The notes under the pieces are model-generated. The model had not been told where the DNA came from. It was given only the letters and a program-made list of their open reading frames with translations, and ran no database searches. A program made the position numbers and the translations under genes. A DNA stretch of 64,000 nt from Psychrobacter sp. PL19 (GTDB taxonomy: Bacteria > Pseudomonadota > Gammaproteobacteria > Pseudomonadales > Moraxellaceae): assembly GCF_017875835.1 (NCBI RefSeq), contig NZ_JAGING010000001.1:744001-808000 (forward strand), in the 5' to 3' direction. Shown here one piece after another: positions 56,243-61,705 of this stretch (positions are counted from its first letter, which is position 1; each line of letters starts with the position of its first letter).

Positions 56243-56254
56243 ATTGCTGTTTTT

Positions 56255-56337
56255 TACTTGCTGTTCGTAAGTGTGACAGAGGCTGCAAAAAATATATACC
56301 AGCAGTGCCTTGTCCTTTTTAAATTGGATCGACTATA
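56255..56337. mobile_element. MITE-like repeat, right-hand part only (copy G)
   Basis: The stretch acttgctgttcgtaagtgtgacagaggctgcaaaaaat through to aaattggatcgactata matches the right two thirds of the copy at 59582. The left end is missing and the atpC terminator stands in its place, so the remnant is truncated. Confidence 0.8.
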
Positions 56338-56666: not shown

Positions 56667-57383
56667 ATGACAATGAACGAAGACGACAACACGCCACGAA
56701 TCCTGATTGTTGAGGATGATGAGCGTCTGGCTATGTTGACTCAAGACTATTTAGTCAAAAATGGCTTGGAAGTAGCGATTGAAACTGACGGTAATCGTGC
56801 TATCCGCCGTATCGTTAATGAGCAGCCAGATTTGGTCGTGCTTGATGTCATGCTTCCTGGTAGTGATGGTCTGACGGTGTGCCGCGAAGTACGCCCTCAT
56901 TATCAAAACCCTATTTTGATGCTTACTGCTCGTACTGAAGATATGGATCAGGTACTTGGTTTAGAGATGGGTGCTGACGATTACGTCGCTAAGCCTGCTC
57001 AGCCACGCGTACTACTCGCGCGTATTCGTGCCTTACTACGTCGTTCGGAAAATGCCCCATCAGAAGATGTACCACAGCGCTTAGAATTTGGTGACTTAGT
57101 TATCGATAATGGCGGTCGTTCAGTAATGCTTGGTGAAGAGTTAGTCGACTTTACTAGTGCGGAATATGACTTATTGTGGTTGCTCGCCTCTAACGCGGGT
57201 CGTATCTTGTCACGCGAAGATATCTTCGAGCGTCTACGTGGTATTGAGTACGATGGTCAAGATCGTTCTATTGACGTGCGTATTTCACGTATTCGTCCTA
57301 AGATTGGTGATGATCCAGAAAACCCAAAACGTATCAAAACCGTCCGTAGTAAAGGTTATTTGTTCGTAAAAGAAGGTAATTAG
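56667..57383 (+). CDS. bfmR: OmpR-family response regulator BfmR
   Basis: A 238-residue response regulator very close to Acinetobacter BfmR, which controls envelope, capsule and biofilm genes. The receiver domain has acidic pair EDD near residue 16 and phospho-acceptor Asp60 in LVVLDVMLPGSDG; Lys is in VAKPAQPRVLL. A winged-helix DNA-binding domain follows from about residue 135 (FTSAEYDLLWLLASNAGRIL, RSIDVRISRIRPKIGDD). The first ATG gives Asp60, the third codon would give Asp58. A strong terminator follows directly, separating it from the kinase gene. Confidence 0.93.
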   Translation: MTMNEDDNTPRILIVEDDERLAMLTQDYLVKNGLEVAIETDGNRAIRRIVNEQPDLVVLDVMLPGSDGLTVCREVRPHYQNPILMLTARTEDMDQVLGLEMGADDYVAKPAQPRVLLARIRALLRRSENAPSEDVPQRLEFGDLVIDNGGRSVMLGEELVDFTSAEYDLLWLLASNAGRILSREDIFERLRGIEYDGQDRSIDVRISRIRPKIGDDPENPKRIKTVRSKGYLFVKEGN

Positions 57384-57427
57384 TTTTACCCCACGACCCT
57401 TAACTGACTGTTCTTCTTCAATAGACT

Positions 57428-57458
57428 AAAAAAACCAGTATCATGCTGGTTTTTTTGT
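57428..57458 (+). terminator. Terminator between bfmR and bfmS
   Basis: aaaaaaaccag-tatcatg-ctggttttttt is an 11-bp stem with a 7-base loop and T run, 45 bases after bfmR. It would uncouple most bfmS expression from the bfmR promoter. Confidence 0.92.
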
Positions 57459-57611
57459 GGACAGTGTTTAAGTTTCTAACGCTATATACCAGGTTATGTG
57501 GTTTAATTAAGCGATAATTATGGGCGCTAATGATATAAATAATCTATACTTATATCAGGCAGTAGGGACAAGCGCTCTCCATTGCTCAGCCTTCTTTACA
57601 TAACTTATTGG

Positions 57612-57681
57612 CCCTAATGAGTAACCCTTAATAGGTGAACTTTAATAGGCAATCCTTGATAGGTAATTCTTAATAGATAAT
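57612..57681. repeat. 14-bp imperfect tandem repeat, five units, upstream of bfmS
   Basis: Five consecutive 14-base units of the type ccttaataggtaat can be laid out from 57612 to 57681. The first is the most diverged. They lie between the bfmR terminator and bfmS, in the likely bfmS promoter or leader region. Confidence 0.72.
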
Positions 57682-57879
57682 TTTTTAAACTTGAGCTATG
57701 GTTTCTCATACTAAAAGGCGAGCAATGCTTTTTCTGGTATTGGTTATCTTAATGATGCTAAGTGTTATGTAAAAGCGTAATAATAAATAGACATTGTTCT
57801 TAATTAATAATGACCGACACTGTCTACAGTACAGATGGCTTCGGCAAATTACTACTCAATAGATTTGGTCACGGCACGT

Positions 57880-59565
57880 ATGTCATTAGTCTCTTCTTTA
57901 AAACACAGTATTTTTGTTCGTATTTATGCTGGACTATTAATAGTCTGCCTGTGTGTCGCATTGTTTGCGCAGTTATTGATGGACACTATCAATAAGGAGC
58001 GTGTGCAGTCGTATCGCGAAAACATGGCAACCGGTGCTTTTTATTTGGTCAGTGAAGGGGTCACTAACCAAGACAGTGAGACCCAGCGTGACTATTGGTT
58101 GTCTGATGCCAGTAGCCTATTCGGCTCGACTTTTCGTATTGTGCCCATCAATGAGGTGGACTTTAACGCCAGTGAGCTACGCCGGTTTGACAAGGGTGGC
58201 ACGGTCGTGCGTTATTTCAACCAACCCACCTATGCCGATGTCTATCATCGTCTGCCAGATGGCAACAGTGTCTTAACGGCTAGGATTTCACAAGTTTCAG
58301 AGCAACAAGTGCGTGCTATGGCAGTGTTCTTGTTGGACGACTTGTCTTATTACCCCACGCTATCGGCTAAGCGTGAGCGCCTAGCTGAGTTAGAAAAGAC
58401 GTTTTCTTTTCCTTTGAGCTTTAAAGGGGTCAATACACTCAATTTAGATAACGATCAAATGGCGCGCTTGCGTCGTGATGAGGTGGTTATCTTATTGCAG
58501 GATACCAACACCAGCCAGGGTAATTCATCGATCAAAATCGTTGTGCCATCCGAGATTAATGACATGGCAATCTTGATGGGACCTGTGCCATTATTCAACT
58601 GGTTTCCCCTTAATTTGATTATTAGCATGGTACTGATCAGTATGTTTTTGATCAGTCTAGGTGTTTATGCGCTGATTTTTCCGCTGGAGCGTAAGTTACA
58701 GTTGATTCAGGTGGGGGTTAATGAAGTTAGTAAAGGCAATCTTGATAGTGAGGTACAGGTGATCGGGCAAGATGAAATTGCTCGTCTGTCAGCAACCTTT
58801 AATGCCATGACTGCACACATTAAGCGCCTCATTGAGTCGCAACGTGAACTAACCCGCGCAGTTTCGCATGAGCTACGTACGCCAGTGGCACGTATTCGCT
58901 TTGCGGTAGATATGTTGGCAGATACGGAGGATGAGGACTCAAGATTCACTCAGCGTGACTTTATCGATGAGGATATTGAGTCGCTTAATGGGCTCATTGA
59001 TGAGATGTTAACCTATGCGAAGCTTGAAGAGGGCTCGCCGAAATTAGACTTAGAGCCAGTAAATCTTAAAGAGCTGGTTGAGCAGATTGAGCGCGAAACC
59101 AATGCACTAGGTAAGTCTATAACAATCGTTGCTAACCCACCCACTGTCAAAGTAACGGCAGTAGCAGACAGGCGCTATTTGCATCGCGTTATCCAAAACC
59201 TTGCCGGTAATGCGTTACGCTATGCAGAGACCACTATTATTATTAGCGCTGGGGTCAAAAAGGGCAATGCCTTTGTTAGTGTCGAGGATGACGGACAGGG
59301 TATTGCCGAGTCTGATCGTGAAAAGGTCTTTATCCCATTTTCACGTCTAGATGATAGCCGAACGCGTGCATCGGGTGGTTATGGCTTGGGGCTGTCTATC
59401 GTGTCACGTATTGCGTTCTGGTTTAATGGTAGTATGAATGTTGATGAAAGTCCGGAGCTTGGCGGTGCGCGTTTTGTAATGACTTGGCCTATCAAGCCGT
59501 TAACTCAAACCATCGTTGCCGATGAGTTAACGCAGGAAAAAAGTGACCGCGACTTTGATGCTTAA
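57880..59565 (+). CDS. bfmS: Sensor histidine kinase BfmS
   Basis: A membrane sensor kinase of about 561 residues, partner of BfmR. It has a first membrane helix (about residues 15-38), a periplasmic domain of about 180 residues, a second helix (about residues 235-260), then HAMP. The H-box SHELRTPVARIR has His330. The N-box NLAGNALRYA, DDGQGI and GGYGLGLSIV follow. ATG 57880 gives a normal short N-terminus; ATG 57835 in frame adds 15 residues. Neither has a good ribosome site. It is separated from bfmR by 496 bp, a terminator and tandem repeats. Confidence 0.9.
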   Translation: MSLVSSLKHSIFVRIYAGLLIVCLCVALFAQLLMDTINKERVQSYRENMATGAFYLVSEGVTNQDSETQRDYWLSDASSLFGSTFRIVPINEVDFNASELRRFDKGGTVVRYFNQPTYADVYHRLPDGNSVLTARISQVSEQQVRAMAVFLLDDLSYYPTLSAKRERLAELEKTFSFPLSFKGVNTLNLDNDQMARLRRDEVVILLQDTNTSQGNSSIKIVVPSEINDMAILMGPVPLFNWFPLNLIISMVLISMFLISLGVYALIFPLERKLQLIQVGVNEVSKGNLDSEVQVIGQDEIARLSATFNAMTAHIKRLIESQRELTRAVSHELRTPVARIRFAVDMLADTEDEDSRFTQRDFIDEDIESLNGLIDEMLTYAKLEEGSPKLDLEPVNLKELVEQIERETNALGKSITIVANPPTVKVTAVADRRYLHRVIQNLAGNALRYAETTIIISAGVKKGNAFVSVEDDGQGIAESDREKVFIPFSRLDDSRTRASGGYGLGLSIVSRIAFWFNGSMNVDESPELGGARFVMTWPIKPLTQTIVADELTQEKSDRDFDA

Positions 59566-59581
59566 TTTAAGCTGATACAGG

Positions 59582-59727
59582 TATAGCTAGTTCAAAATAA
59601 AATAGATACATTTGTATCAGCGTGCTACTGGTATAAATTTTTCTTGCTTGCTGTTCGCACGCGTGACAGAGGCTGCTAAAAATTCATAACAGCAGCACTT
59701 TATCGTTTTTAAATTGGATTGAATATA
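59582..59727. mobile_element. MITE-like repeat, diverged copy H
   Basis: About 142 bp from tatagctagttcaaaat to attggattgaatata. The core actggtataaatttttcttgcttgctgttcgca and gacagaggctgc are shared. It belongs to the longer subgroup with 25265 and 26546. It starts 16 bp after the bfmS stop. Confidence 0.85.
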
Positions 59728-59923
59728 ACATCAGGCATGACAATTATTAATAACTATTTTAAATGACTAGCACTGATCATTGTTCGACTTGCCCCAGTTA
59801 CTTGAGCGAAGACTTACTGATCATAGCCGATATAAATAGTATCTGAATACTGGGCAATGGGTTAAGCAGCAATGACTTAAAGCATTAACTTTTACGATAA
59901 GCTAAAAGTACAGGGAGCAAGGA

Positions 59924-60226: not shown

Positions 60227-61705
60227 TCAAGAATCTTCATCATCTATTGTATTCTTAGCAATAGATAAGTCTTTGGCCTCAGCGCTTAACGTCTCAGTCT
60301 CAGAAACTTTAGAAATTAAAGGAATCCGCACACAAACTTGTAATCCACCATCCGGATGATTGATCGCTTCAACGGTGCCGTGATGCAAGCGTGCAATACG
60401 GCTTACGATCGCCAGACCCAGTCCACTACCCTGGGTAGTACGTGCGGTCTCACCACGCTCAAACGGCTGCATGATACGCTCTAGTTGGTCTTCTGCGACC
60501 CCATCACCACAGTCACGCACGCATATCATCAATTGTTCTTGCGCTTCTTTATTAACCTCATTTTCAGTGACCACATCGCTATCTTCTGGCTCAGCTGTCT
60601 CTATGAAGGTCGGTATTACAGTCGCCGATAAGTAAATTGGTGGCTTGCCATAACGATTGGCATTATTGACTAGGTTAATAACCAAACGTTTGATTGATAA
60701 CGGTCGTACTGGTACTGCTTCATTATGCTCTGACTGATAAATAAACTTCATTGGCGCAAACTGCACCATAATTTCATTAAATATCACATCTAAGTCGGTT
60801 AGGCGTACTGGCTCATCGGAGCCATCTTTCATAAATGAAATAAACTGCTCTAAAATGGCGTCCATGTCCTCAATGTCATAGATTAAACCCTCACGAAAAA
60901 AATCATCTGGTAGCATCTCAGCCGTTAAGCGCATCCGGGTAAGTGGGGTGCGCAAATCATGAGAAATACCTGCGAGCATAATCGTCCGCTCTTTTTGGGC
61001 TTGATTGAGAGTGGTGAACAAATGATTAAAGGCCATATTCACTTGGCGGATTTCAGTAGGGCCTTCGCGCGTAGGCAGGGTAGTAGCATGGCCAAGACGG
61101 ATATAATTAGTGGCAGCACGCTGTAGATAGCGCAGCGGGCGGTTTAATTGCCGTGCTAACAATATAATAGTTAGCAGCGTTAATATCGGGAGCCCGATCA
61201 AAAATAATATTAATAGGGTCGGGCTATATTGCGAATAATAAACCACTGGTTCGCGAATCCAAAAACTGCTATCACGGCTGTCTTGTACCCACAGCTGCGG
61301 GGTAGGTTTGAACTTGAAATAAACCTCGACCGGACGTCCTAACTGCGCGCCGATTTCGTGTTGCAAGACATCGGTAAAAATTCCTACAAAAGCCTTGTCT
61401 GCAACCAGCGGAAAGTCACCTGGGTTTTCGACCACGACCACATGTGAATGCTGATAAACCCATTGCCGTATTTCTGGATTATCTCGCCAATCTTTTTTGA
61501 CACTGTTGATTAACTCAAGCTCACTGGTCAGGTAGCGTGCATGCGTTTTTAACTCCGGTAAATACAGACTACGCCAAAAAAACCAAATCGATAAACTAAC
61601 ACTGATGATCACAATAAAAGCGACCGTTAAAGTGGTGAGCCAGCTACTAGAGTAGGAACGTGAAAGCCAGGCTTTACGTGGTGTGGGCAGGCTTGGAGTC
61701 GTCAT
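60227..61705 (-). CDS. EnvZ-like sensor histidine kinase
   Basis: A 492-residue membrane kinase like EnvZ. There are two membrane helices (about residues 23-47 and 165-187) enclosing a periplasmic domain of about 115 residues, and HAMP follows. The H-box is GISHDLRTPLTRMRLTAEML with His249 (His243 in E. coli EnvZ). NLVNNANRYG, DCGDGV and TQGSGLGLAIV follow. An acidic insert (about residues 375-395) separates the N and G1 boxes. No ompR-type regulator is adjacent: rpsP diverges upstream and bfmS-linked genes converge downstream. The osmoregulatory role is inferred from similarity only. Confidence 0.88.
   Translation of the reverse strand: MTTPSLPTPRKAWLSRSYSSSWLTTLTVAFIVIISVSLSIWFFWRSLYLPELKTHARYLTSELELINSVKKDWRDNPEIRQWVYQHSHVVVVENPGDFPLVADKAFVGIFTDVLQHEIGAQLGRPVEVYFKFKPTPQLWVQDSRDSSFWIREPVVYYSQYSPTLLILFLIGLPILTLLTIILLARQLNRPLRYLQRAATNYIRLGHATTLPTREGPTEIRQVNMAFNHLFTTLNQAQKERTIMLAGISHDLRTPLTRMRLTAEMLPDDFFREGLIYDIEDMDAILEQFISFMKDGSDEPVRLTDLDVIFNEIMVQFAPMKFIYQSEHNEAVPVRPLSIKRLVINLVNNANRYGKPPIYLSATVIPTFIETAEPEDSDVVTENEVNKEAQEQLMICVRDCGDGVAEDQLERIMQPFERGETARTTQGSGLGLAIVSRIARLHHGTVEAINHPDGGLQVCVRIPLISKVSETETLSAEAKDLSIAKNTIDDEDS

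Follow-up and report, generated by a model that had tools for sequence, protein, structure and literature searches.

A basic question in two-component signalling is what determines the ratio of a sensor kinase to its response regulator, and operons in which an internal terminator and an internal promoter favour the regulator over the kinase are a general pattern. Among described pairs, BfmRS of Acinetobacter baumannii, an RstAB-like system of the OmpR family, has the same bfmR-bfmS gene order and domain content as the Psychrobacter pair considered here, and a review states that BfmR of A. baumannii binds the promoter of its own gene, the unphosphorylated form doing so more tightly (PMC6363711). 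The titles and abstract openings of the literature searched, which took in few subscription papers, held no report of a terminator or a separate promoter between bfmR and bfmS, nor of a module of such kind, with a terminator and a promoter at a fixed distance, in two-component operons. The 12 spacers sampled from genus g36, which we infer to be Acinetobacter, leave a gap of 16-103 nt to the kinase start, and 2/12 carry a hairpin followed by a T-tract (hairpin+T; relaxed T rule), whereas the Psychrobacter spacer is longer and holds a terminator and a promoter-like block. A conserved module in an envelope-stress pair, in a genus whose relatives mostly have a tighter arrangement, offers a natural comparison for the ratio question.

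Our main reading, to which we assign a probability of roughly two in three, is that the bfmR and bfmS genes of Psychrobacter form separate transcription units by virtue of a fixed terminator-plus-promoter module, that the leader behind this module is elastic, and that a 14-bp tandem array found in it is a passenger. Since a conserved stop signal and a conserved promoter-like stretch lie between the two genes, production of the sensor probably does not depend on that of the regulator.

The bfmRS genes and their boundaries

The window (the whole stretch of DNA analysed, 64,000 nt) comes from a chromosome of 3.12 Mb in a single contig, whose close relatives are Psychrobacter. On its forward strand, bfmR (56667-57383, with the stop codon ending at 57383) encodes a response regulator with a receiver and a winged-helix DNA-binding domain (Pfam Response_reg and Trans_reg_C), and bfmS (57880-59565) encodes a sensor histidine kinase with HAMP, HisKA and HATPase_c domains, which together is the domain content of an OmpR-family two-component pair. 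The top NCBIfam models were RstA for bfmR (270.4 bits, under the cut-off of 330) and RstB for bfmS (281 bits, under the cut-off of 478), so that neither protein qualifies as an equivalog of RstA or RstB; the name bfmRS, which we take to apply, is adopted on general background and on similarity within the family. Among the matches listed, the identity of bfmR was 91-100% within the genus and 84-86% in g36.

The longest reading frame of bfmS opens at 57835, a start that is not conserved, and the conserved start is the ATG at 57880. This ATG lies at codon 16 of the long frame in 66/67 rows, the remaining row being a misplaced alignment start, and the similarity to relatives begins around codons 5-16 of that frame. 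A TTG at 57865 was set aside as the start because in some relatives (L088, L089, L093 and L139, judged by eye) the stretch from the TTG to the ATG does not keep the reading frame. The intergenic interval of 57384-57879 given in the preliminary description is therefore exact. The genus sample, one genome per species, comprised 105 loci, and 79 distinct spacers, including that of the window, remained once loci that agreed throughout the first 200 nt of the spacer had been merged; in the family sample of 29 spacers a relaxed T rule was used and the bfmS start was placed by alignment to codon 16.

The pair is flanked by two copies of a dispersed repeat of ~97 bp (56250-56337 and 59636-59732), which occurs at least 40 times in the genome (there were 208 candidates, and each of the 40 that were scored matched). 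On the reverse strand, 60227-61705 encodes an EnvZ-like kinase (top NCBIfam model EnvZ, 288.8 bits against a cut-off of 415) with no adjacent ompR, and the OmpR gene above its cut-off, at G000:C1:432790, has no kinase within ~1.5 kb on either side, so that this pair is uncoupled as well.

The hairpin behind bfmR

A hairpin of the intrinsic-terminator type is located at 57427-57457 on the forward strand, with its core at 57435-57449 (CCAGTA/TGCTGG) and seven T residues at 57450-57456; an A-tract on its left side makes it symmetric, and 14 pairs can form within the interval. The region 57421-57462 folds with -14.0 kcal/mol, and a generic test for hairpin+T was passed by 24/1000 dinucleotide shuffles of the window spacer. 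Across the genus, hairpin+T was found in 77/79 distinct bfmR-bfmS spacers, the window included, as against 11/790 shuffled spacers, and one of the two spacers that lack it (L104) is, like L102, cut by a contig end. Most of the hairpins are of the CCAG/CTGG kind (71/77), and 60/71 of these are found at a distance of 45-60 nt from the stop of bfmR. In several lineages the two sides of the stem have changed together, from CCAGC/GCTGG to CCAGT/ACTGG, GCCAGC/GCTGGC or GGTCAGC/GCTGACC, as judged by eye. The stem thus contains G+C, is followed at once by a T-tract, lies 3′ of a stop codon and has been kept in evolution, as expected of an intrinsic terminator. A few spacers depart from the common layout: in L007 the hairpin picked by the detector is an additional one, 265 nt past the end of bfmR, the usual one being present too; in L096 the sole hairpin is 278 nt from the stop; and in L034 the stem is 121 nt away, L096 and L034 both having added sequence 5′ of the hairpin.

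The preliminary description called this a strong, near-ideal terminator. A terminator-type hairpin is indeed present, but its strength was overstated, since only one of the 76 hairpins compared within the genus has a weaker core than this one (-5.1 kcal/mol); when 8 bases are added on either side it ranks 70th of 76, and a T.G wobble in the window takes the place of the fifth C-G pair that is usual elsewhere. The terminator scan of the window did not list the hairpin at 57427-57457, we think because its A-tract pairs with its T-tract. In the two-unit reading, transcription of bfmR would start from the conserved region upstream of that gene, and the bfmR transcript would end at this hairpin, the sequence and conservation of which are observed directly; some read-through probably adds to the transcription of bfmS.

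A weak core is also what would be expected if partial read-through alone fed bfmS and thereby set the regulator-to-kinase ratio, in which case the sequence behind the hairpin would be otherwise employed or would alter termination through a bound factor. Genus g31 points the same way: there, in 7/7 spacers, only 27-36 nt separate the end of the hairpin+T from the start of bfmS (relaxed T rule), and read-through is the simple reading. Elsewhere in the family, under the same rule, hairpin+T was found in 2/2 spacers of g28, 1/1 of g29 and 2/2 of g32, and in 0/3 of g26, 0/1 of g35 and 0/1 of g30. The older role of the hairpin may have been read-through alone, because the spacing in g31 leaves little room for a promoter, and from these 29 spacers we can picture an attenuating hairpin that came first and a promoter block that was added in Psychrobacter. 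For Psychrobacter itself we consider read-through as the only source of bfmS transcripts rather unlikely, since it leaves unexplained a conserved block of ~70 bp that has no predicted RNA fold and carries a -10-like hexamer.

The conserved block and the candidate bfmS promoter

This block (57450-57518, forward strand) lies directly 3′ of the hairpin stem and is the presumed promoter region of bfmS. Its core element, TTATGTGGTTTAATTA in the window (57494-57509, forward strand; consensus TTATRTGGTTTAATTA), is a presumed operator or promoter core. The pattern TTnTRTGnTTTAAT was found in 67/77 hairpin-bearing spacers, and in 67/67 of these it stands 43-45 bp past the stem. This fixed spacing would suit a factor acting on termination as well as a promoter. 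The 10/77 hairpin-bearing spacers without the element belong mostly to more distant members of the genus and count against the two-unit reading. In the 67 sequences (effective number 27.4) the per-position information is high to about +24 from the element start and then near background, the values at positions 0-13 being partly forced by the regular expression, which fixes some positions. Across bins, mean divergence was 0.03-0.35 in the block, 0.09-0.50 at four-fold sites of bfmR and 0.15-0.77 in the next 71 nt, this last figure being inflated by insertions in an ungapped comparison.

The preliminary description had proposed that kinase and regulator levels may be set separately, and the comparison (hairpin+T in nearly all spacers, the element in most of them at a fixed spacing) supports this; the uncoupling of bfmR and bfmS is probably real and a trait of the genus. 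The block is best read as the promoter of bfmS, and this promoter may need a bound factor. In the two-unit model the ~70 bp from the T-tract on would carry this promoter, with the conserved element occupying the -35/spacer region and the -10 about 20 bp past the element start, and transcription of bfmS would begin there. The level of the kinase would then be set apart from that of the regulator, so that the regulator could exceed the kinase. A candidate -10, GATAAT, follows the element at 57513-57518 on the forward strand, and a -10-like hexamer is present at that stretch in 59/67 spacers, against 9-42/67 at seven control positions, all in related sequences. The model is weakened because no acceptable -35 was seen near the candidate -10, because the sigma-70 scan found no promoter on the forward strand of the bfmR-bfmS spacer, and because the -10 controls reach 42/67.

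Other promoter types fitted no better. Sigma-54 and sigma-E layouts did not match the spacing of the block. The ECF factor SigAb was considered because Acinetobacter has this unusual factor. Its published promoter elements are GTCAAC and CGTT (PMC12153292); by eye, these are not among the elements conserved in the block. Autoregulation by BfmR common to both promoters was suggested by a likeness, seen by eye, between TTATAGGTTTTGTTA in the block upstream of bfmR and TTATGTGGTTTAATTA in the bfmS block, and was dropped when 277/5000 shuffles matched the likeness for the consensus and 502/5000 for the window.

No other site in the genome is a convincing match to the element, which, like the chance-level likeness to the bfmR upstream block, counts against the two-unit reading. 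TTATRTGGTTTAATT has a single exact match, that of the element itself, and 48 sites carry up to two mismatches, against 19 for the reversed pattern; the excess includes four copies of GCATGTGGTTTAATT and seven of TTATGAGGTTTAGTT, and the two GCATGTGGTTTAATT copies that were checked both lie inside 16S rRNA genes. A regulon of element-bearing genes was likewise abandoned: four sites have one mismatch, and the genes in or beside which three of them lie show no obvious connection; the fourth is on the other strand. Within the element, ATGTGGTTTAATT (57496-57508) recurs in the four GCATGTGGTTTAATT sites, which is probably a coincidence.

The hairpin and the TTATRTGGTTTAATTA element could also work as one genus-wide switch, in which a putative regulator, bound past the hairpin at constant spacing, would decide whether bfmS transcripts come from read-through or from a separate bfmS promoter. 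We regard this as improbable; if it were true, the dose of the kinase would be set separately from BfmR, and the kinase/phosphatase balance would be controlled through that dose.

The block probably acts as DNA, because RNAalifold on 24 representatives predicted no pairs in it, although shuffled columns likewise gave none and this control is uninformative. A further alternative is that the block serves not bfmS but a small RNA of its own, or else a short antisense RNA ended by the symmetric hairpin. The A- and T-tracts that flank the hairpin could let it act on both strands, and the leader can be long. However, no Rfam family scored above threshold in 57300-58000 (the best had 21.8 bits where 60 were required), little conserved forward-strand sequence lies directly downstream of the block, and an antisense RNA would span only some tens of nucleotides, so that we find either RNA very hard to credit.

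The elastic leader, its repeats and known systems

From the presumed promoter to the ATG, the two-unit reading predicts a leader that is elastic and under weak constraint, and in which insertions accumulate; the 14-bp array would be one of these. The distance from the element to the ATG ranges from 64 to 465 bp across spacers; in the window it is 372 bp, the second longest of 67, and in L030 it is 75 bp. The five imperfect 14-bp units that the preliminary description placed before bfmS are present at 57614-57683, as judged by eye, four better ones starting at 57628. TRF reports a period of 14 and 4.0 copies at 57627-57682 (74% matches, 6% indels, score 61), and by eye the units share 9, 10, 12, 13 and 12 of 14 letters with the consensus TTAATAGGTAATTC (64-93%). 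A score of at least 61 arose in 1/1000 shuffles of the spacer; such arrays are nevertheless common in the window, since 7/28 TRF rows score at least 61, that of the bfmS leader included.

The same description suggested that changes in repeat number could vary bfmS expression, which would make the array a slow contingency locus. The array does sit in the presumed bfmS leader, and leader arrays have expanded elsewhere in the genus: in G027 (L010) the leader carries 23 near-perfect 6-bp AAAGTY units between the promoter block and bfmS, compared with 1-3 in 12 related spacers. For the eight closest of these, identity in the first 1000 nt of bfmS is 95.1-96.3%. The window's units, at 74% matches and 6% indels, are not the near-identical, slippable units of a phase-variable repeat. 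No match to the array was found in the other genomes of the 105-genome genus search, among the matches listed; TRF on the other spacers found no related array, the sole other period-14 array having an unrelated unit, and neither G002 nor G162, the nearest relatives found, has the segment in which it lies. Because its units match the consensus at only 64-93% and no other genome examined has it, the array is unlikely to serve for copy-number switching; as far as examined, it looks private to the window species. That leaders of very different length are tolerated argues further against fine control by the array. Control of bfmS by repeat number is thus unsupported, and we give it hardly any credence. 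The array is probably incidental, not a regulatory feature, and may have a modest effect on bfmS. The regulatory feature is probably the plain block before the repeats and not the eye-catching repeats themselves, which corrects a tempting reading.

Right after the array, a 24-codon reading frame (MVSHTKRRAMLFLVLVILMMLSVM, 57698-57772, forward strand) with a basic start and a hydrophobic stretch is probably incidental too; its segment is also missing from G002 and G162. Directly 5′ of the bfmS ATG stands the 15-mer TTGGTCACGGCACGT (57865-57879, forward strand), exact in 43/67 element-bearing spacers and replaced by near-variants in others. No Shine-Dalgarno-like sequence was seen in it by eye, and it is possibly an unusual translation start or an RNA target.

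Insertions into other spacers are of several kinds. The leader of G013 (L020) has gained an inverted-repeat insertion of ~170 bp with the ends GGGCGTGTCT and AGACACGCCC, MITE-like by eye, and the leaders of G016 and G220 carry dispersed repeats, by eye related to the ~97-bp repeat that flanks bfmRS in the window. Extra sequence, which we presume to be transposons, enters inside the block in G001 and before the hairpin in G005, both at contig ends. The insertions in G001, G005, L034 and L096 do not respect the module and are counted against the two-unit reading.

In comparison with operons that contain an internal terminator and promoter, the Psychrobacter locus shares the regulator in first place, a terminator between the genes and a probable second promoter for the kinase; unlike in that general pattern, the distance from hairpin to element is fixed genus-wide while the leader varies sevenfold. 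With phase-variable tandem-repeat loci the window shares a short tandem array in the presumed 5′ leader of bfmS, but this array is degenerate and was found in one species only, and the near-perfect AAAGTY array of G027 fits such loci better and is the better candidate for a tuning or contingency locus.
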